A DNA stretch of 64,000 nucleotides from Tachypleus tridentatus (lineage: Eukaryota > Arthropoda > Merostomata > Xiphosura > Limulidae), in contig NC_134831.1 in NCBI RefSeq assembly GCF_004210375.1, positions 1,550,001-1,614,000 on the forward strand, in the 5' to 3' direction. Below the pieces are notes generated by a model. That model searched no databases, was not told where the DNA came from, and worked only from the letters and a program-made list of their open reading frames with translations. Both the position numbers and the translations under genes were made by a program. Below are positions 34,365 through 60,739 of the stretch, piece by piece; within the stretch, counting starts at the first letter, position 1; the number at the start of each line of letters is the position of its first letter.

Positions 34365-34693
34365 TCAGTCTAGTTGGCACTGGTTCGTTCCCTCTAATAA
34401 AGCTTTTCTCCTCACTTTCTGCCATTCTGGTAGTTTCGGTGCGCAGTGTAGGATGGGATATCCCAGCATTCTTCTGCCCATGAAAATGAAGTCTCCGACT
34501 CCATGTTTAGTACCACATTTTATCAATCTGTATAGTACGGCTTCTCTTTTACCTACAGTTTCCGTGTTCACGTCCTTTGATGTTGAAACAACAGGCGATT
34601 CACAGTCGCGGTATACTTTGGCAACTTGGACTGTCAAAGCTGACCACAGGAAAGCGTCTTGGTTCTGAAGACTACTTATTGTGCCTTGAATAA
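34365..34693 (-). CDS. Meteorin-family protein, terminal exon
   Basis: Last coding exon of a secreted Meteorin/Meteorin-like protein. In vertebrates these are neurotrophic or metabolic signalling proteins; the arthropod role is not known to me. The exon starts after a strong acceptor (a TTTTCTTTTTTGTTGTCACAG-like tract). It donates two bases plus 108 codons and ends in TGA at 34365-34367. The family signature lies near residues 59-86 of the exon: CGTKHGVGDFIFMG followed by GYPILHCAP, then a charged helix and NQC near the end. Cysteines are at exon residues 30, 59, 83 and 105. Joined in phase 1 to the exon at 51430-51486 it reads CTSSF-VIQG, as expected for the family (CTSDF-V-x-G). No ATG belongs to this exon, and signal-peptide exons were not found. 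An internal GTAAAAG could act as an alternative donor. Confidence 0.88.
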
Positions 34694-34857
34694 CTGTGAC
34701 AACAAAAAAGAAAACATTAGATCATTCGCTTACGTCTTTCCAAAAAATATGACAATTCTATTAACAAGCCTCTCGTCCTGCTCTTGTTATCTACTAATAT
34801 CAACTAGTAGTCGTTATACGTAAAAACGGAAGTTCCTAAAACAACAACTTTGAGAGT

Positions 34858-35419
34858 TTGGTTTGTTTTGAATTTTGCGTAAAGTTACACGAGTGCTCTC
34901 TGCGCTAACCGTCCCTAATTTAGCAGTGTAAGACTGGAAGGAAGGTTTTGTTTGTTTGTTTGTTTTGGAATTTCGCACAAAGCTACTCGAGGGCTATCTG
35001 TGCTAGCCGTCCCTAATTTAGCAGTGTAAGACTAGAGGGAAGGCAGCTAGTCATCACCACCCACCGCCAACTCTTGGGCTACTCTTTTACCAACGAATAG
35101 TGGGATTGACCGTCACATTATACACCCCCACGGCTGGGAGGGCGAGCATGTTTAGCGCGACGCGGGCGGGAACCCGCGACCCTCGGATTACGAGTCGCAC
35201 GCCTTACGCGCTTGGCCATGCCAGGCCTAGAAGGAAGGTAGCTAGTCATCACACCTACTATCAACTCTTCGACTACTATTTTTTTACCAACGAATAGTGG
35301 GATTGCCGTCCCTTATAACGCCCCCACGCCTGAAAGAGCGAGTATGTTTGATGTGACGGGGATTCGAACCCGTAACCCTCAGATTACGAGTCAAGTACCT
35401 TAACCACCTGGCTAAACTG
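34858..35419 (-). repeat. SINE A (A1), split by a younger SINE A2
   Basis: The tail and 3' body occupy 34858-34946, and the rest (AACTCTTCGACTAC, CGAACCCGTAACCCTCAG, ACCACCTGGCTAAAC) resumes after 35229. TGAGAGT at 34851-34857 and 35420-35426 is the likely outer target duplication. Confidence 0.9.
34947..35229 (-). repeat. SINE A2 inserted in SINE A1
   Basis: Full-length, little-diverged A2 copy with GGGAGGGCGAGCATGTTTAG and a CGCGACGCGGGCGGG stretch. The host SINE's GAAGGAAGGT is duplicated at 34937-34946 and 35230-35239. This shows A2 was active after this A1 copy landed. Confidence 0.94.
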
Positions 35420-35542
35420 TGAGAGTATCACGCACTTATATATTTCTTTAGGATCATTCACGGAAACTAAGTAAACCTTATCTCATCTTACTGTTTTTTA
35501 TTAAGTAGTTCGTTTAACATATTGCCTCTGTGCTATTCAGAA

Positions 35543-35822
35543 TGGGCCTGGCATGGCCTAGTGCGTTAAGGCGTGCGCTTCGTAATCTGAGGGTCGCGGG
35601 TTCGCGCCCGAGTCGCGCCAAACATGCTCGCCCTCCCAGCCGTGGGGACGTTATAATGTCACGGTCAATCCCACTATTCGTTGGTAAAAAAAGTAGCCCA
35701 AGAGTTGGCGGTGGGTGGTGATGACTAGCTGCCTTCCCTCTAGTCTTACACTGCTAAATTAGGGACGGCTAGCACAGATTAGCCCTCGAGTAGCTTTGTG
35801 CGAAATTCCAAAAACAACAACA
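35543..35822 (+). repeat. SINE A2 with target-site duplication
   Basis: Head GGGCCTGGCATGGCCTAGTG, GTGCGCTTCGTAATCTGAGG, CGCGCCCGAGTCGCGCC, full body and an AACAACAAC tail. The 11-bp duplication GCTATTCAGAA lies at 35532-35542 and 35823-35833. Confidence 0.95.
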
Positions 35823-35833
35823 GCTATTCAGAA

Positions 35834-37042
35834 ATATCGGTAATTGCATCAAAATTAATCTTTTGATAAAACCTTCTGAAAAGTGTTAGCTATTTGGGAC
35901 TTATACTAGCCGTCGCTAATTTACTAAAACTCAGATGATTTTGATATTCGAGGTTAAACTGGTATACCTTTGTAAGAAACGGAAGGCCAGTACTCACGAG
36001 GCCTAGGAAAAAATCCGACAGTTATACGACCCGTTGAACCTGTTACATGTGATTAAATACCGTTGAGCAGTTGATCTTTAATGAAAGAAAAATAAAATAC
36101 GCTCCAAGCGGGAAGACTGAAGAAGTACTAATATAGAAATAGGGTCAGTGTGGGCAAATTAAGTTAGTAATAAACGTCTAAATACGGTCATTGTTAGATT
36201 TAAAAGAGGGTGCAACACCAGCGCCTTCAACACAAACTCAAGAATTCGACTCAACGTTAAAGTACAAGAGAGGTACTACAAATTTATTATTTTTTGTTGA
36301 CTTTACAACTTCATCGCGTTTTCAGTTTTTAGTTGTGTGAACACCTATCGAATGAGCACACAGCTTTCCAACAAATTTTCCTTTATCTCATTTTGACGAT
36401 ACGACACTTTCGTTACAAATAACTCCTGATAACTCTCCTGTTAGTTTTGGCATGTTTCCTTTTAATGGTAAAATTTGGTCTTGTATTTTAATGTGGGTAA
36501 CTCGTAACTTATACACACTTTGTTTTTTTTTTTTTTTTTACTTTCAAAGGCTTCAAGTTTTTTATTTAGAAATATAAATAAATTAGGTTATTTGCAAAAG
36601 CATCATATTTAGAAACTTGTTTATCAATATAATAACTAAATAAAGTAATACACAGTTTGTGGTAAAAACACTTGATGTGTAGCTAATAAAAATCAACTTA
36701 GTTTTCCAAAGTTTGGCCTAATTAGATGTTCGACGCATTCAAAAACAGGTTACATGAAGTAAAAAACAACAACAAACGTTTTTCTACATTGTTAATGCTT
36801 ATTGGCTAATAGTGCCGTTAAAACGTGTTGATCATCTTTCTATTAATGTTCACACCCCGTTCAAATCGGATACTGCACACTTATATACCATCCCAGTATT
36901 GAACGGGTTAACAATAAGGGAACATTAACAAGTCTTACTGGAAAATTCAACGTTCGTCGCACAGGGTGTTGAATGATTTATTTCATCTATAGGCAAACCA
37001 ATGGATTTGTAGTAAAAAACAAATTACACAAACCAGATTCGA
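35834..37042. other. intronic; no exon seen
   Basis: Unique AT-rich DNA within the Meteorin-family intron. A short CTAGCCGTCGCTAATTT fragment near 35907 is a SINE A remnant, and a T run lies at 36522-36539. Confidence 0.4.
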
Positions 37043-37240
37043 TTTAGTGATGCTGAAGAGATAGTAAGATTTTATTATAATTACTTTAATATTTAGTGAT
37101 GCTGAAGAGATAGTAAGATTTTATTATAATTACTTTAATATTTAGTGATGCTGAAGAGATAGTAAGATTTTATTATAATTACTTTAATATTTAGTGATGC
37201 TGAAGAGATAGTAAGATTTTATTATAATTACTTTAATATT
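37043..37240. repeat. 49-bp minisatellite, four copies
   Basis: TTTAGTGATGCTGAAGAGAT starts at 37043, 37092, 37141 and 37190. Units are essentially identical, so the array is young. Confidence 0.95.
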
Positions 37241-37831
37241 TTTGTTAAATGTACAAGTGACGCACCAACACCATTTTGTTTCTAAGTCTGGTCTTTAGTT
37301 ACTGGTTGCGGCTGAAGTTCTGTTGCGCTCGCGCCGTTACATTTGTGCAGTTTGTACTCGTTTTTATTTTATATATAAATAATTTTTATTCAAATGAAAG
37401 TAATTATTGGTGTAATACGACATTTCAAACAGTTATTGTAATAAATAGACTGAAGAGAGCCAATGGATCTTAAACATGGTTAAAATTAAAAGAGTTAACG
37501 ACGTTGTGGCGCCAAGTTTGTACAGTTCTGTACTTAGTTTTAAGTTCTACTATTACAAGAACACACACACTACTAAACATAGCTAGCTACGATATACAAA
37601 ACACGGTTTATACTAATGTCATAAGAGTTTGCTAGCAACCCGTCGCATATAAACTTTTTTTTATTTAACTGGGAATTCTATTGTATTCTAATAACTACTA
37701 TCCTACATTTTTTTAAACATGTAGTGTTTTATTTTGTCTCTCTTTACGCACTTCTAAAAGTAATGAAAATATTTATTTATGTGAATACGGTTTGTTTTAG
37801 TTTAACAAGGAATAATCTAAGATATCATTTG

Positions 37832-39616
37832 GTATTAAACCTTTCACTTACCCAGTATACGAACATCCTAAGTTACTACTTATTATTAAACCTTTCACTT
37901 ACCCAGTATACGAACATCCTAAGTTACTACTTATTATTAAACCTTTCACTTACCCAGTATACGAACATCCTAAGTTACTACTTATTATTAAACCTTTCAC
38001 TTACCCAGTATACGAACATCCTAAGTTACTACTTATTATTAAACCTTTCACTTACCCAGTATACGAACATCCTAAGTTACTACTTATTATTAAACCTTTC
38101 ACTTACCTAGTATACGAACATCCTAAGTTACTACTTATTATTAAACCTTTTACTTACCCAGTATACGAACATCCTAAGTTACTACTTATTATTAAACCTT
38201 TTACTTACCCAGTATACGAACATCCTAAGTTACTACTTATTATTAAACCTTTCACTTACCCAGTATACGAACATCCTAAGTTACTACTTATTATTAAACC
38301 TTTCACTTACCCAGTATACGAACATCCTAAGTTACTACTTATTATTAAACCTTTCACTTACCTAGTATACGAACATCCTAAGTTACTACTTATTATTAAA
38401 CCTTATTATTAAACCTTTCACTTACCCAGTATACGAACATCCTAAGTTACTACTTATTATTAAACCTTTTACTTACCTAGTATACGAACATCCTAAGTTA
38501 CTACTTATTATTAAACCTTTTTACTTACCCAGTATACGAACATCCTAAGTTACTACTTATTATTAAACCTTTCACTTACCCAGTATACGAACATCCTAAG
38601 TATACGAACATCCTAAGTTACTACTTATTATTAAACCTTTCACTTACCCAGTATACGAACATCCTAAGTTACTACTTATTATTAAACCTTTCACTTACCC
38701 AGTATACGAACATCCTAAGTTACTACTTATTATTAAACCTTTCACTTACCCAGTATACGAACATCCTAAGTTACTACTTATTATTAAACCTTTCACTTAC
38801 CCAGTATACGAACATCCTAAGTTACTACTTATTATTAAACCTTTCACTTACCCAGTATACGAACATCCTAAGTTACTACTTATTATTAAACCTTTCACTT
38901 ACCCAGTATACGAACATCCTAAGTTACTACTTATTATTAAACCTTTCACTTACCCAGTATACGAACATCCTAAGTTACTACTTATTATTAAACCTTTCAC
39001 TTACCCAGTATACGAACATCCTAAGTTACTACTTATTATTAAACCTTTTACTTACCTAGTATACGAACATCCTAAGTTACTACTTATTATTAAACCTTTC
39101 ACTTACCCAGTATACGAACATCCTAAGTTACTACTTATTATTAAGCCTTTTACTTACCCAGTATACGAACATCCTAAGTTACTACTTATTATTAAACCTT
39201 TCACTTACCCAGTATACGAACATCCTAAGTTACTACTTATTATTAAACCTTTCACTTACCCAGTATACGAACATCCTAAGTTACTACTTATTATTAAACC
39301 TTTCACTTACCCAGTATACGAACATCCTAAGTTACTACTTATTATTAAACCTTTCACTTACCCAGTATACGAACATCCTAAGTAACTACTTATTATTAAA
39401 CCTTTTACTTACCTAGTATACGAACATCCTAAGTTACTACTTATTATTAAACCTTTCACTTACCCAGTATACGAACATCCTAAATTACTACTTATTATTA
39501 AGCCTTTTACTTACCCAGTATACGAACATCCTAAGTAACTACTTATTATTAAACCTTTCACTTACCCAGTATACGAACATCCTAAGTTACTACTTATTAT
39601 TAAGCCTTTTACTTAT
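37832..39616. repeat. 51-bp minisatellite, about 35 copies
   Basis: Units contain ACCTTTCACTTACCCAGTAT and TACTACTTATTATTA. Point variants (CACTTACCT, TTTTACTTACC, AAGCC) are scattered and recur, as expected from unequal exchange. A truncated or recombined unit occurs near 38400 and 38600. Because 51 is 17 codons, a 17-residue repeat (SLTQYTNILSYYLLLNL) is open until the first CCTAG variant. I judge this accidental: it lies in an intron and other frames behave similarly. Confidence 0.97.
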
Positions 39617-39904
39617 TCGCCATATCATTACTATAAAAGTTAAAAAAAAAAAACTTACAAAACTCTTTAACACCAAATTAAACTCAGTTATATTTCAAAC
39701 AATATTCACCCCTAAAATGACAGATCTAAGAAACGTTTCAAACAATATCCACCCATGTAACACCAGATCTTAAAAATGTCTCAAACAATATCCACCTCCA
39801 TAATAGAATATCTAATTAATATTTTAAATACTGCTATTATTGGAGAAACAAGCAAAAGTATAATAACAAACAGGACATAAAACAAATGTGTATCCTACGA
39901 GATA

Positions 39905-40030
39905 AGTAAGGGTTTAGTTCTTTCAAGAGCAAAGTCACACAGGACTTATCTGCTGTTTCCACCGAAAGAAATCGAAACTCGGATTTTAGCGTTATAAATT
40001 TGTAAATTTACCTCTGTCCTACTCTAAAAT
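39905..40030 (-). repeat. diverged SINE B copy
   Basis: Reverse-strand remnants in order: AGCAAAGTCACACAGG, ATCTGCTGTTTCCACCG, AATCGAAACTCGGATTTTAGC, TTTACCTCTGTCCTACTC. Confidence 0.75.
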
Positions 40031-40229
40031 AAACAGGAAAACATATGTCACACCTAAGTTATATTTTAACTAACAACAATTTTACAAAAATGTAAAAAGA
40101 GAGAGGTTAAAGATATGATGTTTTTGCAGGTTTATGTTTCAAGTACCTATTTACCTGTACAACAATAACAACAAAAACAAAAGGTAGAAAATACAGTGCG
40201 ACTCATGAGTTATGCCCTTTATTGACAAA

Positions 40230-40610
40230 ATATAACCCAGTGAATACGTAACTTAGTTTCTCAACCACAAGAACAAAAGAGAAAGCTACCATGATATGTT
40301 GTTGAGCGAAGTTTTCCACGTACCAGAATAGATACGTGTTTATTCAGGTAAGTTGCTAGGCGAATTTTTTCAACTACGAGACGGACGCGAGTACGTTTAC
40401 AAATATAAATGTTGCTATTCTCACGATAACTTTAATTAAAATAAAATACAAAATAACGTTTCGACCTTCTTAGGTCATCTTCAAATCTTTGTATAAATTA
40501 TTTTATAACGAGAATACACGAGTATGTTTACAGAGATAAGTCGCTAAGTAATTTTTTTCAACTTCAAGAACACAACTAGATATAGAAATAACCTTACATA
40601 CCATTTGGTA
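40230..40610. repeat. degenerate tandem repeat around the hairpin
   Basis: Blocks resembling GAGTACGTTTACA followed by GATAAGTYGCTAGGCGAATTTTTTCAACTA recur at irregular spacing on both sides of the hairpin near 40.40-40.52 kb. The hairpin therefore sits within, and probably inserted into, an older repeat. Confidence 0.5.
40447..40493 (-). ncRNA. hammerhead-ribozyme-like motif
   Basis: Read on the minus strand, there is an outer stem TACAAA/TTTGTA (stem I). The box TTGAAGA stands where the hammerhead needs CTGANGA. A 5-bp stem II GACCT/AGGTC has a short loop, and GAAAC is followed by GTTA, the site where cleavage would fall. The order and spacing match a minimal type I hammerhead of the kind reported in Penelope-like elements. 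The only core departure is C-to-T at position 3 of the catalytic box, which should greatly reduce or abolish cleavage. A longer inverted repeat (TATTCTC...GAGAATA) encloses it. Confidence 0.65.
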
Positions 40611-40620
40611 TCAAGTCACT

Positions 40621-41692
40621 AGACTTGAATTAAAACTACGTAGGTGTGTGTGTTTAGCTGAAATGTTTCATTCAATAGAACGTCACTTACCAACTTTACA
40701 GCTACAGTTAAAACAGAACAAATAATGAGAGACGAAAGTTTTTAAAATATCTTGTTTAACTCCTAACCCAGAAAGATGATTTTTTTTACTAATTTTAACA
40801 TTAAGCACAAATTGATTTTGAAAAATCTAGAAAAATGTAGTTTATATATATATATATATTTGCCAACACTGCGAAATATTTCAAATGCTTTACCCCCGGG
40901 GAAATTGTTCCTACTTAATAATCCTCAGAATTACATCTTTAAACTGGTTATTACCAGAAAATGACTAGATACTTTGGACGAATTATTTTATGTCTCAGGG
41001 ACGCCGCATAACTGAAAAATAACAGATTTTATCTTTGATATCGTTTGCTAGTTTTTTGTCTTCCATATAAAATATAGTTTCATACTTTTACAAAAACTAC
41101 TACATACTAGTTGAGATCCGTAAAACATTTGCAGTCAAATTAGTACTTTTATTGCAACAGAACTTATTTATAACACCGGATTTCTATAATGACATAAAAA
41201 AAATTATAATCGCAGACACCGAAATATATTACGTCCATTTGTCTTAGGCCTAATACTAGTTAAGCCTTTATCGAGTACGGCATATATCTGATAAAGAGAT
41301 AAATTGACAATATTACTCCTGGACCTTGTTTTTTACTTTAGTTAGAGCTAAATTTCATCGTACTTAATACTATGAATAAATACATTTGTAATGTAATTCT
41401 ACGAATTAACATTAGGGATTTTTAAAAAGTTTCATAAGTCCTTAATTAATATGTTGTTGTACAACATGTACAAATGTCTAATAAAGTATATTTACATCCG
41501 TTAAAATTAAGTGTGCGCACAAGCGCACTTAGATTGTAATATGTGCGCGCCTTTTCAGGGCAGACAGGCCTGAATATTACAATCGTAAAAGATAAATACA
41601 TGCGTCACGCCATGCCTAATGATACATTCCAAAATTAAAGAGAACATCTCAGGTTAATGGTTATAGCTCACTAGCTCACTGTTGTGTCCAAC
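40621..41692. other. intronic; no exon seen
   Basis: AT-rich unique DNA with a (TA)n run at about 40843-40859. No exon-like segment. Confidence 0.4.
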
Positions 41693-41812
41693 CCCCCCCC
41701 GCTATTACAGAGGTAAGTGTAAGGATTTACAACGCTCAAATCAGGGGTTCGATTCCCCTCGGTAGACTCAGCAGATAGCTCGATGTGGCTTTGTTATAAG
41801 AAAAACACACAC
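41693..41812 (+). repeat. SINE B copy
   Basis: GCTATTACAGAGGTAAG head, GGGGTTCGATTCCCCTCGG B box, CAGCAGATAGCTCGATGTGG and a CA-rich tail. Confidence 0.92.
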
Positions 41813-41904
41813 GCCTTCCCTAGCATAAGGCGTTATATTCCATAATACAACTTTTAAAAAAATATTTCCAATACGCATAATTTTGAGATACTTGTTGGGT
41901 TCTT

Positions 41905-42120
41905 TAGGACATTCATGAAAAGCTACACAAGGGCTATTTGTACTGGCTGACCCTAATTTTGAACTGATAAACTACATAAGAAGATGGCTAATCAACAGCA
42001 TCCAATGCAAACTCTCGGGCTACTTTAATCCCATAGTTAGATTTGACCGCCATTCTTATAACACATACACGGACCTAAAGTGCGGAGCGCAATTTTGCGA
42101 CAATAGGACTCGAAACATGA
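41905..42120 (-). repeat. old diverged relative of SINE A
   Basis: Reverse-strand body recognisable by AAAGCTACACAAGGGCTATT, CTCTCGGGCTACTTTAATCC and TTATAACACATACACGG. It ends in a head side GTGCGGAGCGC distinct from ordinary SINE A. Confidence 0.65.
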
Positions 42121-43077
42121 ATAATTGGATTCACAGTTTGACACTTCAATTTATTACCTACTTGGAAATTATTAAAATAATTATGAATTTGTTGCAACAA
42201 ACCATAAAAAACTCTCTCCCAGAGAAAGAGAGAAAACAAAAAATGCAAAGGGGCTCAAATAAACCCGAACAGAACTATATTAATCGTACATATAGCCCAA
42301 ATACAAATCCCGGTTTGCCCCTGTTTCAATGAATTTTTTTTCTTATTACCATAATTGCAATGCAGAACGGATTGCACATGACCAGGTTAGCTGATTGTGG
42401 CTCAAATTAATCACTTCTACTGAGATGAACCAAGCTAGAAAAAGTCAAGGTTGTAAGACTACACTAGAACTTGATAATTTTATTCTGAGAACGTCCTAAT
42501 CAGAGAGGTGTCATCAGCCCCCCCTCCCTTCACTGTCTGCACCTTCCTTACCGTTTTAGTTTCGTATGCTTGTCGACACTTCCAGGCCTGGTTACCGCTC
42601 TAATGATATCTTTACAATTACACGTAAAAAATGGACAAGCGACACTAAGTAGACAGTAACATTTATACACACACACACACATATATATATATATTATATA
42701 CATTTTGAGTCTCTTTATTAGAAGTCAGGGTTAATAAACATTCAAGAGGTTTAATCAGTTTCCTCATGGTGCTCACGTACGCGCACACACACAGATACGC
42801 CTCTTAGGCAACTCTTTTTTGGTCATCAGCCGAAACAAATGTCCTCTTTTCTGACAAAGTTTATTCAGTTATATTATAACAGTTTCCCTGTCATCTGCGG
42901 TAAATTTTAAAGCGTTCTTACGCACATACAGAGTAAGTGTGACGTCATTATTTACCCCTAATTCTCGGAACAATTGATACTATGTTCACGTTAACAGTGT
43001 CAGATTAATCACGTTGAGTTTGGTCGTTTTGACTCAGTTCCCTTTACGTGACTACTTGAACAACAAAACATGAAAAG
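42121..43077. other. intronic; microsatellite but no exon seen
   Basis: Contains a (CA)n(TA)n run at about 42666-42701 and a short CA run near 42783. Nothing else was recognised. Confidence 0.45.
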
Positions 43078-44020
43078 CTGGTGAACAGTGTTACAGAATA
43101 AACTACGAACGTGAATTGTTGGTCAACAGTATTACAGAATAAACTACGAACATGAATTGTTGGTCAACATTATTACAGAATAAACTACGAACATGGATTG
43201 TTGGTCAACATTGTTACAGAATAAACTACGAGCATAAATTGTTAGTCAACAGTGTTACAGAATAAACTATGAACATGAAGAGTTGGTCAACAGTGCTACA
43301 GAATAAACTATGAACATGGAATGTTGGTCAACAGTGTTACAGAATAAGCTATGAATATGGATTGTTGGTCAACAGTGTCACAGAATAAACTACCAACATG
43401 AATTGTTGGTCAATAGTGTTACAGAATAAACTATGAGTATGGATTGTTGGTCAACAGTGTTACAGAATAAACTACGAACATGAATTGTTGGTCAACAGTA
43501 TTACAGAATAAACTACGAACATGGATTGTTGGTCAACATTGTTACAGAATAAACTACATGGAATGTTGGAGTGTTACATAAATTGTTAGTCAACAGTGTT
43601 ACAGAATAAACTATGAACATGAAGAGTTGGTCAACAGTGCTACAGAATAAACTACGAACATGGAATGTTGGTCAACAGTGTTACAGAATAAGTTATGAAT
43701 ATGGATTGTTGGTCAACAGTGTCACAGAATAAACTACCAACATGAATTGTTGGTCAACAGTGTTACAGAATAAGCTATGAACATGGATTGTTGGTCAACA
43801 GTGTTACAGAATAAACTACAAACATGAATTGTTGGTCAATAGTGTTACAGAATAAACTATGAGCATGGATTGTTGGTCAACAGTGTTACAGAATAAACTA
43901 CAGACATGAATTGTTGGTCAATAGTGTTACAGAATAAACTATGAACATGAAGGGTTGGTCAACAGTGTTACAGAATAAACTATGAACATAAAGGGTTGGT
44001 CAACAGTGTTAACTACTAAT
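43078..44020. repeat. 41-bp minisatellite with a duplicated block
   Basis: About 22 units built on TTGGTCAACAGTGTTACAG with a 41-base period. A distinctive run of variant units starting GAAGAGTTGG at 43278 recurs in the same order at 43621, 343 bases later, after one irregular unit near 43556-43590. A multi-unit block was therefore duplicated. Confidence 0.95.
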
Positions 44021-44224
44021 ATGAACTGTTCTTTGCCGTACTTATAACAACATGAGAATGAAATTTCGGTTATTACTACCAAACCTCGAATACGAAATAC
44101 TCAGTAACAAAATAGGAAAGTCTACTGGTGAGTTGAAGGAACATGACTAACACGAAATACTGATTAACACTGTTTAGAGAGTCAACACCAACTCAAAAAA
44201 AAAGCTGCTAGAGCTGCTAGACTC

Positions 44225-44394
44225 TAGGAAACAATGCAAATCAACATCATTCACAACTAATCTAATAGTGGGACTTGACAGTCACTCTTATGACGCACCT
44301 ACAGCCCCAAACTCCTGAGCGCATTTTCCTTTCACTTTGTTAATAACCCGGCATGACCAGGTGATTAGGGTAATCAACTGGTAATCTGAGGAAT
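44225..44394. repeat. SINE A-related fragments in opposite orientations
   Basis: 44225-44335 resembles the old SINE A relative on the minus strand (AATAGTGGGACTTGACAGTC, CCCCAAACTCCTGAGCGC). 44348-44394 is a plus-strand head-only SINE A remnant (CCCGGCATGACCAGGTGATT). Confidence 0.6.
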
Positions 44395-46823
44395 AACTAG
44401 TTTCCAATCAGGGTTAAGTACGTACGTAGAATTAAAATCAAAACCAACCTGGCCACAATGGAGTTAATTAAATATACATTCTTACGGTTTCTACTCGTAA
44501 AGATTAAAGTGCACTATTTCATCAGTTGGGCACTCTTGTTGTTAACGATATATTCGGCCATAATCCCAATAACATTACACTATGTACTATTAATTAATAG
44601 AGTTAACAAAGAGAAACTGTTTACTTGCGTTAGTAGAAAAACTATAATTCATAAAATGTTGATTATTTGCGTTCGTAGAAGAGAGAATGGGAGTGACCAA
44701 ATTCCGATCCAGACCCCGTGAATGTAAAAAAAAAATTGAGTGAAAACTGATTAGACAGTGTATGTATCCGTCCGTTCAAATATGATAAAAACAAAGGTAC
44801 TTATAACGCTAAATAAAATTCGAGATTTGATCTCTGCGGTAGATACGAGAAAGATGGACTATCGTGCAACTTTGAGTTTAACAACAAGTTATTTTTTAAA
44901 AAACGTCAATTTTTTGAACATTTGTATACAGTTTAAAATATTTTAATCCTACTTTAACAGTAAACCTTTTCACGTAATCCCCAAAACGAAAATCACTGCA
45001 CGCATACGTACGCCGAGCAAAAAAAAAAAAACCGAAAAAAACACACAACGTCACATGGCATAAATATCACTTATAGATCATTTTCAATAAGACTTTCAGC
45101 GTATTTTCTTGGAATAAAATACAAGCTTATGTAAACTTAAAAAATACACAGACGGTATAGTTGCAGTAAAAGTAGCAGATGTCTTTATGCCACACTTCCG
45201 AAGAACGTTTAAAGTTACACATAAAAAAAACACATCGCCAATAGCCGCCTACGTTGATCCACCGTGCTTGCTGAAGGTGGACACGTCTCACAAGAACCAG
45301 TGCTGATCTCGAAGATTAAGACATTAGACAGAAAGATATCTCTCGAGTTAAGTTTCAGTCACGATCTACAACAGCTGGTGTTTGTTTGAAAAACCTGAGG
45401 TGAAAAAAAACCATCACTTTTTGAGTGACATCTGATATTCTTAAAAAAATTTAAAAAAAGGTGAAGAGAGAACAGAATATTGTGATAAATGGTTCTATTC
45501 CAATACGTGTCCGTACGTGAACGTACATGGGATATTTAGATTTAGTTACAAGTTAACCTAAGTTAATAATAAAAAAGACATCAAACAAAATAAAGTAGAA
45601 AATTTGTGGTGTTTATATCTTCTCAATAAAATTGAATTGAAAAAACTGACGACAATTGAAAATATACGACGTCAGTAACGACTATTCTTATAACCGGAAT
45701 TCCTACAGATAACTGTAAGACGTTATAAATATATATAATTCATGGTGATTAAGGCCGTTCCACTCTTGGTCCAGGTTCGAGATCTATTACCAAAACCACG
45801 AAGTAATTTATCAGTAACTGCTCTAGTTAGTGTTCAGCTACTATTTAGGCTTAGTTCAATCTAACAACAACGATTTTATGAGAACTTTTGCACGTAAAAA
45901 AACAAACAAAAAATAGTCACAAAGATTATTTATATAAAGAAATGTGTGTGTTTTTAACACCCTAACTCCCCCGAACCTATTGGGCCAATCTCGACCAAAA
46001 TATGCGTAAACACTATGAATTATGTGGAATGTTCTTAGGGGATCAAAATTGAGCCTAACCCTATTTCTATTTTGTAAAATATATTGGTTAATTTCTCCAA
46101 GCCTATTGAGTAAATCTCAAACAATCTTGGTAGGTTGATGCTTTAGACAATGTTGAATATTCCAAAAGGATTCAAGGACAAAGTGTGAAAGTTGCTGGAC
46201 TGTTTCTCAAACGACCATGATTTTATCATGATCAGTGAGATGTAGGGTGTTCAAGCGTGGAATCACCTCAAATTATTTATTTATTACAAGATGGAAAGCA
46301 AACTGTAAATGTTGTTTATGAAAAAGCTTGGTTATAATTTTAAAATCTCGAGATAAAGTTTATGTTCAAGTTATTACTTTGAAACATATAATTGGTGTTA
46401 ATCTTACACTTAACGCGTATTTCAACTTGTAACGAAATAAAAACGAACAGGGGTCCAAATAAAAGTGGAGAGAGACGGAAAGTTCATTTGACTGAGGGAA
46501 GCGAGGGAATGTACTCCACAGGGACACACATGCTGTGTACGGCTGTGGTCCAGGGTTTGCTTTAGGGTCCTGAAAGTTCTTAGGTTGTCGGTTGAATTTT
46601 ACGAACTCTTCTGCTTTTCCTGATAATAATTTTCCTAATTTTGATTTTTTTTTTTTTTACTGGGACAAATAGAAAAGTGAGGAAGGGTTCCATTTTGTTC
46701 GTAGTGAAATGACTTACTTTTACAAGACTGATATGAAATTTAACTTCAGGGTGTTGTTCTGGTAAATTGGGGCTTACATCAAAGTATTTGTATTTGTTAT
46801 TTATATACACCACCAGTAAATTA
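44395..46823. other. intronic; no exon seen
   Basis: AT-rich. A weak SINE A head remnant occurs near 45741-45795. A pair of related segments around CCTATTGGGCCAATCTC (45977) and CCTATTGAGTAAATCTC (46103) suggests an old repeat. Frames of 62-87 codons lack any family motif. Confidence 0.4.
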
Positions 46824-49315
46824 CACTATGTAACAAAATTTTACTTTTTATTGTTCCTGGGAAGAAAGTGTTATTTCCCAATTGTTTATGCCTAAGGTAA
46901 ATGGAAGAGACCTATTTTTCTCTTCAAACTTTGCTTTTGTGACCTGGATAATGAAATTTTCAAATTTAACCATTTTTCAGAACATTCCAGGTAGATTTAG
47001 TGCTGAGTCGCTGATAGAGAATTTTCTCGAACTTTATAAAATGTTGTAGAACTTACGAGAATTTTCAATAGCCTTTTAGAATTTTCTAGAACTTTCCATA
47101 GTAATATATATATATATATGTAGGGGCTTACCACTCACCAATTCAGTTTATTTTTGTCTACCTAAGTGAACACATAGACCTATCTGATTTTATCAGAGAT
47201 GGCATCAAGAAGCTGCAAGCATTCTCCAGATACATTCTGCTATGTATGTGGCCAATTTATCAAGACAAGAGCAAAAAAGTACTCTGTGACATCATCTGTT
47301 AAAATGTATGAAGTCTACAAGACATATTTCAACATGCCTGTTGGGGATCAAGACAAACCCTGGGCACCTCATTTTACCTGCAAGCACTGCAAAAAACTCT
47401 AGAAAGCAAGATGGACAATTTTTGCTTGCTTGAATAGTGAGATTTTATATTATACAAATTTTAGATCTTTTAAAATTTAAATATTTTTTTTATTTCCAAT
47501 AGTATAGAAAATTATCACATATAAAATATTTTGCATGAACTTCTTCACATTAGTTGTGGATGAAATAAATTTATTCTTCATAATAATTTTATTTTGCCCT
47601 TTTGCAGGATGGTACAGAGGGGAAAGGAGAACCATTAAGTTCGCTATTTCAAGAATTTGACGTGAACCCACTGACCATTCAAGCAATTACTACTTCTGCA
47701 TGATGGACCCTTCCAAACGTCGGGCTGACAAGAACGCATCTGCTGTCATGTATTCGGACCTTCCACTATCCATCGTCCCAGTGCCACACTGCCCTGAGCA
47801 ACCTGTATCCACTCCGTCAGAGAGAAAGCAGCAAATCAGAAGAGGAGGTAGACGTTGAAGATCCAGATTACAATTTCAGAGGTGCAGCTGGTGAGAAAAA
47901 CACATTCTACCCCAACCAAAGAGACCTCAATGATTTGATCAGAGATCTTGGTCTAACAAAGTCGAATGCCAAGCTTTTGACATATAGGCTCAAGGAATGA
48001 GATTTGTTAGAAGAAAGTGTGCAAGTTGCAAGTCAGAGGAAGCGTTACTGACTGATATTTTTCAAGCTTGTTTACTCCTCAAGATGGACTCTGCTTCTGC
48101 CACAATGTATCCGGTCTGTGTGAGGCAACTAGGATTGCCTGTAACCCGAACGAGTGGCGCCTCTTCATTGATAGTTCATCCAGAAGCCTCAGAGCTGTGC
48201 TGATCCATAACGGGAATAAGTAACCGTCTCTTTCCCTGGCTCATTCGTTTCACCTCACAGAGGAATACAACAACGTCAAGACCATGCTTAAAAGCCTTGA
48301 AGTATAATGAGTATGACTGGGAGGTTATCAGAGACATCAAAATGGTGGCATTCCTGATGGGTCTCCAAGGAGGCTTTATCAAGTTTCCCTGTTATCTTTG
48401 CTTTTGGGACAGCAGGGATACCACAGCGCACTACAACAGGAAGCACTGGCCACAATGGACCGAGTTCTCTATGGGGAGGCACAACGTCAAGTGTGATCTA
48501 CTAGTGGAACCCCAAAAGGTATTGTTCCCATCATTGCACATAAAATTGGGTCTCATGAAACAATTTGTCACAGCTCTTGATAAGAAGTTTGCAGCCTTCA
48601 AGTACCTTCAAGACTTCTTCCCTAAGCTGTCTGAGGCAAAGGTCAAAGTTGATGTCTTCGTTGGACCACAAATAAAGAAGATCCTGGAGTACACGGAATT
48701 CCTCAAGAAGCTCAGTAGGAAGGAAAAAAAAGCTTGGGGCAGCTGTGTCGCAGTGGTTCGGGCTTCTTGAGCAGTCACAAGGCCGAAAATTATGTGGAAC
48801 TGGTTGAGGCTCTGGTGAAGAACTACGGCGAAATGGGCTGCAGGATGTCTCTGAAAGTACATATCCTTGACGTTCATCTTCATAAATTCAAGGAGAACAT
48901 GGGAGCATACTCAGAAGAGCAAGGCGAGCGCTTCCACCAAGATATACTGGACTTTGAACGCCGCTACCAAAGAGCGTATAACGAAAACATGATGGAAGAC
49001 TATATTTGGGGGCTGATACGTGAAAGTGATTTACATTACAGTCGCAAATCTTGAAAAACTACTCAATTTTTGTATAACTTTAGTATAAATACATGTAAAT
49101 TTTGATTTATATGTTGTTTCATTCAAACTTCATGTGAATAAATATGTGCAAATTTGCCCATTTTTACATAGAAAATAGGTTAATTTCTAAATTTCATTAT
49201 CCAGGTCACAAGAGCAAAATTTGAAGGAAATAATGGCCATTTTCTGTACTTTTACAACATAAACAATTGCGAAATAACACATACTATTCAGGAACAAAAC
49301 TTGTGTTACATAGTG
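46824..49315 (+). mobile_element. 2.5-kb DNA transposon, inactivated
   Basis: Long imperfect terminal inverted repeats of about 150 bases begin CACTATGTAACA. A 3-bp duplication TTA flanks the element (46821-46823 and 49316-49318). Inside is one broken transposase-like gene with an intron. The termini start with CACTA and the duplication is 3 bp, as in CACTA/EnSpm elements, but superfamily assignment needs a protein search. It is the structural parent of the deleted copies at 20456-20931 and 29231-29716. It lies in the Meteorin-family intron, in the opposite transcriptional direction to the gene. Confidence 0.92.
47199..49054 (+). pseudogene. transposase-like gene with multiple breaks
   Basis: Exon 1 (from ATG at 47199) carries paired cysteines (CYVC, CKHC) suggesting a zinc-binding N-terminus, then shifts frame at about 47390-47400. 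An intron ends at 47607 (TTTTGCAG). Exon 2 resumes as WYRG and continues recognisably, with in-frame stops near 47657, 47998 and 48222 and shifts near 47826, 48060-48140, 48300 and 48765. Segments that stay readable include WRLFIDSS (near 48160), IRDIKMVAFL plus FPCYLCFW (48330-48410) and SEEQGERFH (near 48915). Those three blocks are candidates for the Asp, Asp and Glu of an RNase-H-fold transposase. The gene ends at TGA 49052-49054. I have seen very similar multicopy proteins in arthropods, but I cannot name the family with certainty. Confidence 0.85.
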
Positions 49316-49318
49316 TTA

Positions 49319-50359
49319 TCAAACCTTATTTTTCAAAGAATCTGTTAGTGACCTTTTATTTCAAGAATGCATACAGAAAAAAGCATTATGAGTAACTACA
49401 CGTGGTCAGCATCATTGCTAAAAACTTTAAATGCAATTCATAACGAGTATAAAACTGACCATTGCTAAATGCTGCAGTATTAAAGATTATTTACTTGTTA
49501 TCTTCTTAAATATATTGTATGCATTACTTTTCTAAGTTACATTCATAATTATTATATCAGACAAAAAGTACAAAATTATAGTATTTAAACTTATATACAC
49601 ACGTACACAAACACGCAGTTTCTTTACGCAATAAAAATGACATCTGGTGATTGAAACATGTCATTAAAATTGTTTAAAATCACCGTCAAAAAGAGTTTAA
49701 ACAGGATTTCCTTATTATGGCAAATAAACACCGTAAATTTAGAAAGTATATAACTGGATGTATATCTTCTATAAGAGAAAGTATTAGTGAATACACAACT
49801 TAAATGTAAACGTGCCTAAATACGTTCTGAATTTCCCGCACGCGGGGACAAACACACAAATACCTTTCAGCAACTTCAGTTGTCTGCCTCCCACTTCTCT
49901 TCGGCGGGACGTTTCGCTGCGTTTGTTTGGTAGATTAAATCAGAGTTACAAACAAAAGCTTGCGTTGCCCTCATGGGGGCGGTCACCATATTGCACAATA
50001 TTATGAGCAAATGCTTCGAATGACACTAGAGAACAAACTGGCCTTTGCGTAAGGGCAAATATTCCGAGGAAAATCCATTACTAGGATATGCATAACATAC
50101 ACGTGTTTATATAAATCTGCGACGTCATTAAAATACAACAGTTTATTTACTCTAAAACTAATTTGTAGTTAGTGTGTATATTAATACCGTTTTAAAAGAT
50201 TCGAAACCACACAGTTAACTGTTCAAGAAAAATGTGGTAGTTAACTAAGGAAAATAACCTTAAGAAATAATATGACCCAGTTCACTTGAACATTATTATA
50301 ACCCGAATGGGGCCTTATACAACAAGTTAGCTAAATGGCCAGATCTAATACTTCAAAGT
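49319..50359. other. intronic; GC-richer patch, no exon called
   Basis: Mostly AT-rich. 49805-50000 is richer in GC and CpG (CCCGCACGCGGGGAC, CGGCGGGACG), with a 64-codon plus frame but no splice support. It could be regulatory; nothing specific was recognised. Confidence 0.4.
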
Positions 50360-50545
50360 TCAAGTATAATTGTTCCTAATTTTGAGCTTCTGACCAGAGT
50401 GAGGACTACCACTCACCAGCACCCGCCGCTTACAAGACTACCCTTAACTGAATAGTGGCATTGGTTGTCACTTATATAAACACCCGCGGATGAAATATGG
50501 ATCGTGTTCTACTCTGTGTCGCGGGACAGAACCATGGACCTTCCG
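50360..50545 (-). repeat. old diverged relative of SINE A
   Basis: Minus-strand blocks GTTCCTAATTTTGAGC, CTCACCAGCACCCGCCGC, GAATAGTGGCATTGG and CGCGGGACAGAACCATGG appear in SINE A order. A two-copy duplication of ACTGAGAACAGGAGATCTTG follows at 50592-50640. Confidence 0.6.
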
Positions 50546-51429
50546 ATACACAACCCGACATACGGCGACGCCAGTCCCAAGCTTTCGGAGAAACTGAGAA
50601 CAGGAGATCTTGATTGACTGAGAACAGGAGATCTTGATGGTTATAATGAAGTTCCTCTTTCAAATCGAGCGCTTTTGTTACTTTCTCCATCGTAGCGTTC
50701 ACGAGGTCTGCGAGATTTTTTGGTGTAATATTCACAAGTTACTAATATAAATCCATTCCACATCATGTAGTGAATCTTGATTCATTAACGTGGCTTGTTT
50801 ACTTCAACAACAGTTACATTAGGCATCTTACCAACTCTTTAATGGTAACAATCTTACTAACAGCCTGCAACCATTAACTGGGAATTGAACCAAATCGTAA
50901 CTGCAGACGCTGGAACAGTGACTTCCAATATTTTTTTCTTTTGAAACAGGTTATTAAAAAACTATGAACGGGTCAAGTGAACACATCTATCTTAATTTTA
51001 AAAAATAAGAACCAATCGTCAATAAGTCCAAGTAAACATATAGATGTTACTAACACATAGGAAAATTCTTAGAAGTCATGGGTGTTTTAATGAATTCAAT
51101 AAAAACACAGTGATAAAGAACTATATGAAACAATAATGGAGGTACTGTTAGCCTAGATACCAGACGGCCATATTTTTTTTATTATTATTATAAGAAGCGA
51201 CATCTATAGATATTTCCGTCTCATTCTTTCGGGTTGTTCTGTCATGTATCGAATTACGTTTCACATTTGTAGATGTCGCAACAATCTCAGGTTCTAACCA
51301 AATGACAAAAACAAGAAACTGTTACACGAAACATATCTTTAATGCTGTCAAAATGGCGGAATTGTTAAAAGAAAGCTTTTTGTTTCTACATTTCTTGAGC
51401 CTTAAAAAATATAAAATCTGAAAACTTAC

Positions 51430-51486
51430 CGAAACTACTTGTGCAATAATATGTAAGAATTTCTTCTTCTGTACAAGGGCGACATT
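51430..51486 (-). CDS. Meteorin-family protein, penultimate exon
   Basis: A 57-nt exon between a near-perfect acceptor (CTTTTTTTCAG) and donor (GTAAGT) on the minus strand. Frame fixed by phase 1 on both sides: two bases, 18 codons reading CRPCTEEEILTYYCTSSF, then one base. The C-x2-C...C-T-S-x-F pattern is the hallmark of the netrin-like half of Meteorin proteins. Its junction to the exon at 34365-34693 completes a valine and continues in family order. The incoming exon must end in phase 1. I could not find it between here and 64 kb, so the gene is partial in this window. This exon is too short for ORF-length gene finding. Confidence 0.88.
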
Positions 51487-52619
51487 CTGAAAAAAAGAAA
51501 TACACCACTGTTCAGATATGTGTATATACGATTACAGATGCTGAGCTAGTACGTTACAGATTCAAAAAGTAGGAACCACAGAGTAAAAGGCGTAAGGCGT
51601 AACATTAAAGGTGTAACAACAACAACAAATTAGAAAATAATGGGTGTAAAGTGTTACACCAAATATAAAATAACCATAAATTACAAACACGGCAACAGCT
51701 TTTCAGCAGATAATATGCACACGTGGCAACTGTAAGTTAGATGTCGCTACAGTTCTAGTGTATGTAACAACAGATGTAAGCATTAACAACAAAGAACCAA
51801 CTGCTACAGAGATTAAGTGCATGTAACGCTACACACGTGATAGATATAAGATACGCATGGCAAACAGGTATAGTGTGTGTAACACAACATATATGACAAC
51901 TATAAACAACAAAGTACTGTAGCCATAACTTATAGGTGATGTAACAAGCGCAATAGTTACAAGTTAGACTCGGGAACAAATTTTGAGTTGTAAAATGTAT
52001 GTAGTTCCACTCTTTTACTTGTATTTCACACACTATTTTAATAATTGCTATGTCCTGTTAATAAACAGTGTTAGTATTGTCTTCTCTCACGATTATTTCT
52101 TGTATGTCTAGAGGTAACTTCTATAGAGGGCTAAGCCAAATGGACTTTTACTGCGTATAACGTTTAAATAGGAAATAGAGTGACTTGGTACCAAATTTCT
52201 TCTAACCTGATTGCCCCCTAGAACTAGGTCCATATGACCAAGAAAATAATTCTTCACTATCTTTATTTTACACCTTCGCCCCAAAATATTCTTAATCGAG
52301 TTTTATATTTTAAATACGTTTGAGAAACTATCACTCTGTTGACATTTAAAAAGTATAATATTTATAGTTTTACAATTTTATAGTAAGTTGGGGTTAAGTG
52401 TTTGGCCTCACAATGAAAACCATACATAATGTGAATATTCCACGATAAAAATACCCAGAACTTCAAGCATGCACGCTTTGGTTCATTCCTAAGTTTAACT
52501 AAGCAACAAGTGCTAGCAAAACATCCATACAGCCACATATTTAGAATGTTCTAACAAGAGCTGGTGTTTTAAGAGTTTAACAAATATTATTAGCTTTTAC
52601 ATTTTCTAACCACTTTGTA
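51487..52619. other. no further exon seen
   Basis: AT-rich. 51590-51970 has loosely recurring GTGTAACA/GTTACA segments that may be a very old tandem repeat. The 92-codon minus frame at 51755-52033 falls in it and has no family motif. Confidence 0.4.
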
Positions 52620-52868
52620 GGCCCGGCATGGCCAGCAGTCGTTTCGTAATCTGAGGGCCGCGGGTTCGAATCCCCGTCACACCAAACATGCTCGCCCCCT
52701 TTCAGCCATAGGGGCATTATAATGTTACGATCAATCAAACTATTCATTGGTAAAAGAGTAGCACAAGACTTGGCAGTGGGTGTGATGACTAGCCAGCTGC
52801 CTTACACTGCTAAATTAGGGACGGCCAGCGCAGATAGCCCTCATGCAGCTTTGCGCGAAATTTAAAAG
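52620..52868 (+). repeat. SINE A copy with a deleted head segment
   Basis: GGCCCGGCATGGCCAG is followed by a shortened stretch, then CGGGTTCGAATCCCCGTC, the body, and a tail CAGCTTTGCGCGAAATTT. Confidence 0.93.
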
Positions 52869-53060
52869 AAACAATTTTGTGGTTTTTGAGGGGATAACAA
52901 ACCACATATATGCCCTCCTACTTCTGAATGTAAATTCATGTCAGAAACTAATTTCTGTGTTATTTGAACAGAACAGTTCATTGTTGTACTTTTATTATTT
53001 ATTTTTAAATTAAAGTTAACAGTAGGTACAGAGACATCTGCACTTTATCCTGTCCCTTAC

Positions 53061-53200
53061 CCTCCTACAATTGTGCTCTGACCCCGACGTTAATTTCGAA
53101 AATGGTAGATACTCATTGGCCGAGTTCAGTTGACGATAAAGCACGAGTGCACGTGCCGTCTAGATATTTGATCTTATATAGCACATGCTCCAGACACGTG
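53061..53200 (-). promoter_or_regulatory. promoter-like patch with TATA box and splice donor
   Basis: On the minus strand TATATAAG (53173-53180) is a canonical TATA box. It is bracketed by two CACGTG E-boxes (53150-53155 and 53195-53200) in a locally GC-richer stretch. A start about 30 bases downstream would fall near 53145-53150. A good donor, AGG|GTAAGG, follows at 53060-53061, so a noncoding first exon of about 90 bases is possible. It lies 1.6 kb upstream of the Meteorin-family exon on the same strand, but an in-frame TAG prevents it from coding into that exon. Speculative. Confidence 0.3.
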
Positions 53201-54000
53201 ACGCGCCCACTTGGACGTTCAGGGTCCACATTCGTAAACAGACGTCCAATGTTGGATAAAGTTCAGAATTATAATGGCGTTTCGTGCAACTATACAATTT
53301 CCTGAACAATTAAATTTGAAAATTTAAACTAAATTTACCTATTTATACCTTCATAGCATTTACAGCTCAGATTAATCATCAGCTAATCCACGAACAGTTG
53401 ATCTCAGCATACAACTTGACAGAGATGGCGCTGCTGTAAAACAGTATTGTTAATGTACGAAGTTCACATTAAAAGAAATAAACGAACCAATTAATAAAAA
53501 ATATGAGCTAACAGGTTCTTGCGCTGTAGGTTTATACGATGCTGTAAATAATACCATGCTGTGGTATAATAAATGTTTATTTGAGACTATTCTCTGACGG
53601 TTACCAAAGTCTGTTCATATGAACATTTAGTATTCTGGTTTATTCAATTATGTAAAACCCACAATGGCAAATAATGACGTTTTAATTAATTCATAACGTG
53701 GTAGGTTAGTACTTAGTACAGCTGATAAACTTTTATTTAGTGGTCGGACAATCTGTCTTAATAACTGATCAACAGAGACTGTTGTACAACGTATCACCAA
53801 CACTATTATAATCCAACCATTTATTATTTACAAGCGAGGCGAGCATACAGAATGTCACAATCATTATAAATGAGTCAGTTTGGACAATGTTTAAATAAAC
53901 TGTTTATACCAGTAACTAATAAGCAGTATACTCGGTCTTAATTATAACGACGCAGTTACAATTTAACTGGAAAATGCAAATATGTTTATGTTTATATGTG
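53201..54000. other. no gene seen
   Basis: AT-rich unique DNA ending in a (TA)n run with flanking GTGTA/TACAC at about 53997-54030. Confidence 0.4.
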
Positions 54001-54030
54001 TATATATATATATATATATATACACACAAA

Positions 54031-54306
54031 TTGTTAGTTTGTTTTTTAATTTCGCGCAAAACTACACGAGGGCTGTTTGCGCTAGCCGTCCCTAATGTAG
54101 CAGTGTAAGACCAGAGGAAAGGCAGCTAGTCATCACCAGCCACTGCCAACTCTTGGGCTTCTCTTTTACCAACGAATAGTGGGATTGACCGAAACGTATA
54201 ACGCCCCCACGACTGAAATGGTGAGCATGTTTGGTATGACGGGGATTCGAACCCGCGACCCTCGTATTACGAGTCGAATGCATTAACCACCTGGCCATGC
54301 CGAGCT
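54031..54306 (-). repeat. SINE A copy, full length
   Basis: Minus-strand copy, tail to head (CACCTGGCCATGCCGAGC). It inserted next to the (TA)n run, so its target duplication is ambiguous. Confidence 0.93.
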
Positions 54307-54473
54307 GTATACATGAAAATACGCCGAAAGTAACTCGTAAAACTAGTGCACAGCAGCGACTTAGGTAGATTTTGTGGACTTGGATATTTTTTTCTGTTTC
54401 CCAACGTGATATTATTAATAATTAATGTGTGATAATTTGTCTTTTAAATAGAACCAAGAGCGGACCAATGGTG

Positions 54474-54727
54474 AGCTGAGGTTCCGTGGTTCGCGTCTTT
54501 ATGCCACAAAAAAACAACAAACACAACTTGAGGTTCCGTGGTTCGCGTCCCAACACCACAAGAAACTCGTGCTTTGAAATTTTAAAGCTGTGGATGTAAT
54601 ATAAGAGTAATAGCTCACTATCAGGTCTTACAAGAGTTGGCAGGGGACGGTATTGATTGGGTCGATCACTTGAAAATTAGGGAGGCTAGTGGAGACAGCC
54701 CTGATGTAGTTTTGCGTGAAATCTAAC
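54474..54727 (+). repeat. old SINE A-like copy with duplicated B-box region
   Basis: GAGGTTCCGTGGTTCGCGTC occurs at about 54479 and again at 54530, then AAGAGTTGGCAGGGGACGG and AATTAGGGAGGCTAGTGG, with tail TGTAGTTTTGCGTGAAATC. It is a diverged SINE A relative with a small internal tandem duplication. Confidence 0.6.
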
Positions 54728-55185
54728 AAAAGAAATATTCGACGTTTTATATGTATATGTTCTCAGTGAGAGGGGAGGCATGAAAAGGGTGCTTGTTTTG
54801 TATTTTTGTGAAAACGGTGAAACTTTTCAACTGGCACATCAAGCGGTATGAAATACAAAGTTACTTTACAGGTGAAGCAGGCGATTATTTTAAAAATATA
54901 CTGAGAATTACATACGGGTTCCTGAAGCTATCACAGGAAAATCAACAAAATAAAAACGGTCTTTGGGATTACGTGGCTAGAAATTTGGGATTACGTGAAT
55001 TTCACCAGACTAAACTGGCTTGAAGATTTCACGACATTGCTATGTTACAAAGCTTTTTAGAGATTAAGTTAACTAAAGTTATTTTCGAAATCACTAAACT
55101 AACCCAGGAATGTTCCTTAATATAATTTATTTTTTTAGAAATATTCTCTCTTTCTATTCAACAGTAGCGTCTTGTCACTGTTGTG
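54728..55185. other. no gene seen
   Basis: A 76-codon plus frame (54793-55023) lacks splice sites or a family motif, and nothing else was recognised. Confidence 0.4.
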
Positions 55186-55318
55186 GTTATTTAATATTAA
55201 CAAAACTACACAAAGGGCTATCGAGTCTCTGTCCACAACGGATATCGAAACCCAGTGTATATTGGTGTGTGTGTATATATATACATCCGTAAATATTCCA
55301 CTGTGCCACTGGACGGCT
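55186..55318 (-). repeat. SINE C copy with internal TG/TA expansion
   Basis: AAACTACACAAAGGGCTATC, CACAACGGATATCGAAACCC, then a GTGTGTGTATATATATAC expansion, then TCCACTGTGCCACTGG. Confidence 0.8.
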
Positions 55319-55319
55319 C

Positions 55320-55466
55320 TGTTTGGTTAGTTGATTGATTGGTTGAAGTTAAGTACAAAGCTACATAAAGGGTTATCTGTGCTCTCTAACCACTAGAGGT
55401 ATCGAAAGTCGGTTTATCTCAGTATAAGTCCGCAGACATATCGTTGTGATGCCATTGGGGGAAAAC
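55320..55466 (-). repeat. SINE C copy, adjacent to another
   Basis: GTTGAAGTTAAGTACAAAGC, AACCACTAGAGGTATCGAAA, AGTCCGCAGACATATCG and ATTGGGGGAAA on the reverse strand. It lies end to end with the previous SINE C in the same orientation. Confidence 0.82.
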
Positions 55467-55811
55467 ATCTTATCATGAGAAGGTGTGTGAATTTGTCGAC
55501 AATTGTGAGTTTTACCTAAAATACGCCTCTCAATATATCTCAGTACCACAAACTCGAGATATTTCTGTAAGCCTAACAGCATGACAAGAAGCCGAATGGG
55601 TTTAAATAACTTCTAAAATTAAAAGAAAAAAATTAGAACTATATATTCACTCATGACAGTAGAAAAACACATAACTTCGAAAAAGTGTTGTGCAAACATA
55701 AATACGAAGCCATACAATTCGCGGGATTTCGACAGATGGACCACTTTTCGTCACGAACTAACCAACCCACTTTGCCAACGATAAAAACATCGTTACTTTG
55801 CCTTTCACAAT

Positions 55812-56239
55812 TCGGCCCAGCATGGCCAGGTGGGTTAAGGCGTTCGACTCGTAATTTGAGGGTCGCGGGTTCGAATCCCGATCGCACCAAACATGCTCGC
55901 CCTTTCAGCCGTGGGGGCGTTATAATGTACGGTCAATCCTACTATTCGTGGGTAACAGAGTAGTCCAAGAGTTGGCAGTGGATGGTGAAGACTAGCTGCT
56001 TTCCCTCTAGTCTTACACTGCTAAATTGGGGACGGCTAGTGCAGATAGCCATTGAGTAGCTTTGCGCGTGTGTTTATACACTCAAGCATGTGTGTTTTCT
56101 TATAGCAAAGCCACCTTGGGCTATCTACTGAGCCCACCGAGGGGAATCGAACACCTTATTTTAGCGTTGTAAGTCCGGAGACATACCGCTGTACTAGCGG
56201 GGTGCAGCTTTGCGCGAAATCCAAAACAAATAAACCTTT
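55812..56239 (+). repeat. SINE A copy, split by SINE B
   Basis: GGCCCAGCATGGCCAGGTGG head and complete body to TAGCTTTGCGCG. The tail resumes at 56216 and ends CCAAAACAAATAAAC. The interruption is the SINE B at 56069-56215. Confidence 0.93.
56069..56215 (-). repeat. SINE B inserted in the SINE A tail
   Basis: Complete minus-strand SINE B from a TG-rich tail to CATACCGCTGTACTAGCGGG. The 11-bp duplication AGCTTTGCGCG lies at 56058-56068 and 56216-56226. SINE B landed in the very tail motif its family shares with SINE A. Confidence 0.95.
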
Positions 56240-57671: not shown

Positions 57672-57921
57672 CCTAGCATGGCCTGGCGGTGAAGGCGCTA
57701 GACTCGCAATCTGATGGTTGCGGGTTCGAATCCCAGTCCCATTAAGCATGCTTGCTCTTTCGGCTGTGGAATCATTGTAATGTTACAGCCAATTGCACAA
57801 TTCGTTGGTAAAAGAGTAGCCCAAGAATTGCCTTCTCTCCAGTCTTTCAATGATAAATTACGAATTACTAGAGCAGACAGCCCTCTTGTAGCTCTGCGTG
57901 AAATTCAAAATAAACCAACGG
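57672..57921 (+). repeat. diverged SINE A copy
   Basis: CCTAGCATGGCCTGGCGG head, CGGGTTCGAATCCCAGTC B box, GGTAAAAGAGTAGCCCAAG, and tail CTCTTGTAGCTCTGCGTG. Part of the body is missing. Confidence 0.88.
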
Positions 57922-59446: not shown

Positions 59447-59608
59447 GTTTGTTTGTGTAGAATTTCGTGTAAATGTCCACGAGAGTCTTCTCTAATTCAG
59501 CAGTGTAAGATTAGAGGACAGCTAGTCATCACCACCCACCATCAACTCTTGGGCCACTATTTTACCAACGAATAGTGGGATTGACCGTATTAATAACGTC
59601 CCCACCCA
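59447..59608 (-). repeat. 5'-truncated SINE A
   Basis: GTTTGTTTGTG tail, AGCAGTGTAAGATTAGAGG, AACTCTTGGGCCACTATTTT and CGAATAGTGGGATTGACCG. It stops before the head. Confidence 0.88.
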
Positions 59609-60700: not shown

Positions 60701-60739
60701 AAATTAAAACATAACATTTCCTGGATATTAAACAAGAGT

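Follow-up and report, generated by a model that had tools for sequence, protein, structure and literature searches.

Gene structure and repeats at the locus

The window analyzed in this study, a stretch of 64,000 nucleotides (C7:1550001-1614000), was compared with the 2.17-Gb assembly of the same genome (205 contigs). On its minus strand lie two coding pieces, at window 34365-34693 and 51430-51486, which we regard, judging from the sequence and at a probability of about 0.96, as the 3' half of a protein-coding gene that belongs to the Meteorin family and is complete. Meteorins are small signalling proteins released from cells, and they are known chiefly from vertebrates. The whole gene occupies C7:1584365-1623194 on the minus strand, spans 38.8 kb and contains four coding exons. 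Exon 1 (C7:1623073-1623194, minus strand, 122 nt), which was placed via the CDW landmark, and exon 2 (C7:1614658-1615046, minus strand, 389 nt), which was found by comparison between copies and encodes the N-terminal domain, are located beyond the window, 9.1 and 0.66 kb past its end, respectively. Exon 3 (window 51430-51486, minus strand, 57 nt) encodes the start of the C-terminal domain (CRPC...CTSSF), is in phase 1 at both ends and is flanked by TTTTTTTCAG before and GTAAGTTTTC after. Exon 4 (window 34365-34693, minus strand, 329 nt including the TGA stop codon at 34365-34367) encodes the greater part of the C-terminal NTR-like domain. It is preceded by GTTGTCACAG, with a CACAG acceptor. 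GT...AG borders were found at all three introns, namely intron 1 (8,026 bp), intron 2 (13,171 bp over its full length, of which the part at window 51487-64000, minus strand, lies in the window) and intron 3 (window 34694-51429, minus strand, 16,736 bp, GTAAGT...CACAG).

The original prediction held that two minus-strand exons with strong splice signals join in phase 1 at the positions of exons 3 and 4, and this was borne out; the joined product reads CRPCTEEEILTYYCTSSF-V-IQGTIS...CGTKHGVGDFIFMG...LHCAP...NQCQLD-stop, a stretch of 127 residues that starts at CRPC and runs up to the stop. The landmark described as CG-x3-HGVGDFIF is present, and only the length of its spacer had to be corrected, two residues (TK) being found between CG and HGVGDFIF. 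The upstream search for N-terminal exons suggested at that time was performed as a six-frame fragment comparison between copies (C7:1612001-1732000 versus C9:101219001-101299000), in which low-copy matches only were considered, among the matches listed. Exons 1 and 2 emerged from this comparison with the copy located at about 101 Mb of C9, and the four exons join in frame to give 897 nt with the stop, corresponding to a 298-residue precursor.

Intron 3 had been called a repeat-filled intron of 16.7 kb; the length agrees, and the repeat content was recovered in part. Of the 16,736 bp, 3,615 belong to tandem arrays, and the sum rises to at least 5,256 bp (31%) once dispersed matches are included, a lower bound in which the dispersed repeats were scored against 320 kb of other sequence of the same genome. 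The repeat analysis of the intron revealed no sign of a function of its own, and ordinary splicing would remove it. A 51-bp minisatellite within it (window 37833-39615) is strongly asymmetric between the strands (GC skew of -0.54 at 38-40 kb) and gives rise to long plus-strand open frames of repetitive sequence. Two overlapping open frames at window 48204-49054 (plus strand), also in intron 3, resemble one frame-shifted protein and perhaps encode a mobile-element protein; Pfam gave no match over cut-off for these frames or for any of the five long open reading frames of the window that were scanned besides the Meteorin exons. Elsewhere in the window, an array of about 267 copies of a 46-bp satellite takes up window 1-12256, with a period of 138 bp (three units) scoring higher, and varied copies of a dispersed SINE-like element with the motif GGGCTATCTGCGCTAGCCGTCCC / CTAATTTAGCAGTGTAAGACTAGAGGGAAGG occur on both strands, at window 34856-35392, about 52600-52900, 54050-54300 and 55800-56250.

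Protein domains and family membership

The 298-residue precursor consists of a leader (TSVLATFVLIILC) that looks hydrophobic as judged by eye, an N-terminal domain opening with CDW-x-GSGL and a C-terminal NTR-like domain opening with CRPC. When the mature protein (269 aa) was searched against the PDB with phmmer, the best matches were Meteorin (7tlh, E = 7.6e-19) and Meteorin-like (7tlw, E = 6e-15), and the next match after the Meteorins was a ferredoxin-like protein (E = 0.032). Residues 2-129 of the 269 matched the Meteorin N-terminal domain (7tl6, E = 1.4e-13), with CDWVGSGL of the horseshoe crab aligned with CSWRGSGL of 7tl6.

The sole Pfam match is to the general NTR model and is weak (exons 3 and 4, E = 0.013, 15.8 bits, below the cut-off of 21.9); neither exon 4 by itself (E up to 10) nor the full 298 aa (E up to 0.05) matched this model. 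Such a result might be expected if the protein belonged to another NTR-domain family, of the netrin, sFRP, TIMP or PCPE type, and resembled Meteorin through the common fold alone. Against this, the 127 residues of exons 3 and 4 matched just 7tlh (E = 6.3e-19) and 7tlw (E = 4.3e-15) in the whole PDB at E up to 10, and a domain of Meteorin type lies upstream in frame. Membership in another NTR family is contradicted by that N-terminal match; we dropped it and consider its probability negligible. A chance match of splice sites was likewise ruled out, since the joined residues match Meteorin at the E-value given above and both exons have in-frame paralogues in the same genome. The assignment to Meteorin, which had been proposed from exons 3 and 4, was upheld by both domains, and the protein search with the translated exons placed 7tlh and 7tlw first.

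The Meteorin family has ten conserved cysteines, and ten cysteines of the horseshoe-crab protein (four N-terminal and six C-terminal) were found to align with Meteorin in the printed PDB alignments. Compared with vertebrate METRN (7tlh and 7tl6), both domains match in the same order and the landmarks CDW/CSW-x-GSGL, CRPC, CTS-F, CG and CAP are shared, whereas the window copy differs by one extra cysteine in exon 4. The match to METRNL (also subfatin or IL-41; 7tlw) in the C-terminal domain (6e-15) is slightly weaker than that to METRN. The extra cysteine, in a YRDC motif of exon 4 (window 34368-34691, minus strand), occurs in the window copy alone among the six copies on C7 and C9; it gives the mature protein an odd number of cysteines and hence would leave a free cysteine or allow an intermolecular bond.

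Paralogues and the history of the divergent pairs

A genome search with exon 4 (E up to 0.001) yielded eight matches at four places, the window counted, including two on C7, two on C9 at about 30 Mb (C9a), two on C9 at about 101 Mb (C9b) and two on C13. The C7, C9a and C9b pairs each consist of a minus-strand copy to the left and a plus-strand copy to the right, with their 5' ends facing each other; the copies are designated below by place and strand, the window copy being the minus-strand copy of C7. Both C13 copies are on the minus strand and have decayed, one being a 51-residue piece and the other carrying five stops. With exon 2 as query (E up to 1), five places were found in the genome (C7-, C7+, C9a+, C9a- and C9b+), and neither C9b- nor C13 gave a match. 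Exon 3, of 57 nt, was located in each of the five C7 and C9 copies whose region was examined for it (the window copy, C7+, C9b+, C9b- and C9a+), and exon 1 in each of the four in which it was sought (C7-, C7+, C9b+ and C9b-). Splice phases were equal across the paralogous exons read, with the exception of exon 3 of C9b-, and both members were open in the exons read at two of the three places with pairs.

Because exon 2 was undetected and the acceptor of exon 3 is out of the family phase, the C9b- copy is probably broken, as far as its sequence indicates. An exon-skipping variant was rejected for this copy, since the phase is 2 at the end of exon 1 and TGT follows directly on the acceptor of exon 3, which permits no join in the Meteorin frame. 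At C9:101239100-101239720 (minus strand), the 3' end of exon 1 of C9b- and its donor are tandemly repeated, the four CDWIER units being spaced at about 106 bp and lying next to the apparently lost exon 2.

A phylogenetic tree was reconstructed from the six C7 and C9 copies and two PDB sequences, with the two partial C13 rows left out. A single long branch carried both vertebrate forms and separated them from the six horseshoe-crab copies, and the window gene is therefore not specifically METRN. C7+ grouped with C9a- (support 99/98) and the window copy grouped with C9a+ (support 80/88, not fully supported), and C9b+ and C9b- were unplaced. A separate tree that included the partial C13 rows joined them to C9b+ with support of 98. 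Constraining the two copies of one place to be sisters was rejected for C7 (p-AU 7.4e-7) and for C9a (p-AU 1.6e-4), the groups having been chosen after viewing an earlier tree, so that the p values are optimistic.

Between C7 and C9a the order of the matching copies is mirrored, which is what the copying of a single block would give if it is read in the opposite direction. Rejection of same-place sisterhood at C7 and C9a implies that the divergent pair predates the duplication that copied it, and we infer that this was probably a whole-genome duplication. Tentatively, the back-to-back pair may predate the horseshoe-crab genome duplications and may then have been copied and kept paired at three places, a history that we consider possible and do not rate as likely. 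The pairs might also have arisen independently, through a local duplication at each place, and not from one ancestral pair, which would fit the sister constraint on the two C9b copies, which was not rejected (p-AU 0.28), as well as the deeper branches among the horseshoe-crab copies, which are poorly supported throughout. The grouping of C7+ with C9a- and the two rejected constraints, weakened as the latter are by the post-hoc choice of groups, speak against separate duplications, which we hold to be improbable.

Selection was estimated by the NG86 method on exons 2 and 4. The dN/dS ratio was 0.18 for the window copy versus C9a+, its closest copy, and 0.12 for C7+ versus C9a-; eight of ten pairs fell within 0.12-0.21 and the other two were undefined with dS saturated, and many of the dS values underlying these ratios approach or exceed saturation. 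For the window copy versus C9a+, dS was 0.83 in exon 2 and 1.10 in exon 4. These sequence comparisons show purifying selection on the window copy relative to its paralogues. It could nevertheless be silent or recently dead, with the frame still open and expression lost, perhaps through growth of its introns: its intron 3 is the longest among the five copies with both intron ends located (16.7 kb, against about 3.7 kb in C7+, 2.4 kb in C9b+, 9.1 kb in C9a+ and 5.4 kb in C9b-, sizes derived by hand), and decay has occurred elsewhere in the family, in the C13 copies and in C9b-. All four exons are open, however, every splice site is standard, and the ratio of 0.18 is accompanied by 85% identity in exon 2 at a dS of about 0.8, which together make a silent copy highly improbable.

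Paired extra Meteorin copies in a duplicated genome offer a small test case for retention after duplication. If selection holds the pairing, both ligands may be under common long-range regulation or may cooperate, and the Meteorin set of horseshoe crabs would be larger than that of vertebrates.

Predicted function and occurrence of Meteorins in arthropods

By homology with the vertebrate Meteorins, for which such activity is reported, the product would be secreted and fold into two disulfide-bonded domains, and outside the cell it would serve as a ligand for, or modulate, receptors of the cell surface or integrins; we consider this set of properties probable. The excerpts of PMC12316458 available to us report binding of KIT by METRNL and a genetic interaction with integrins in vertebrates, and cite KIT and Htr2b as receptors. 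To transfer any single one of these named receptors to the horseshoe-crab protein would be very doubtful. The human METRNL gene has four exons according to the portion of PMC12110803 consulted, and the horseshoe-crab gene likewise has four coding exons (122, 389, 57 and 329 nt).

The 2025 eLife paper (PMC12316458) states, in the passages available, that invertebrate genomes yielded neither metrn nor metrnl, that metrnl orthologues were found in amphioxus and tunicates, and that the role in the left-right axis is proposed to have emerged in chordates. Arthropod members are already in print, including Nv-meteorin of the wasp Nasonia and LOC107455759 of the spider Parasteatoda, the spider gene being labelled meteorin-like (PMC12159194, in part). 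An arthropod Meteorin is thus not new in itself, and the horseshoe-crab gene adds a member to an established family. IL41 homologues are listed in invertebrates in the section seen of an interleukin survey (PMC8226699), and in a paper on glia (PMC11193209) the word meteorin appears in a reference only. Among open-licence literature, as far as its searchable text extends, horseshoe crab and meteorin were mentioned together in one paper, on fish C-reactive protein. The original expectation that little work on this family exists in chelicerates fits what was found in these partial sources, namely one brief reference to a spider gene. Protein databases may well already contain annotated horseshoe-crab Meteorins.

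A complete arthropod Meteorin gene contradicts the claim in the available part of PMC12316458 that the family is absent from invertebrates. Taken with the wasp and spider genes, an arthropod gene with both domains implies that the family arose before arthropods and chordates diverged, and its original role is therefore open to study in protostomes.

Another gene family was also recorded in this genome. The coagulin family (PF02035) was found at 19 places, against none in 14 control genomes. To our knowledge, coagulogen is confined to horseshoe crabs, and the coagulin exons accordingly mark this genome as that of a horseshoe crab, most likely Tachypleus, in agreement with the chelicerate placement in the original prediction. 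Three coagulin pieces on C11 were translated, and the two that were compared with the PDB are the same as coagulogen PDB 1AOC, which we take to come from Tachypleus tridentatus, without difference over 41 and 48 residues.
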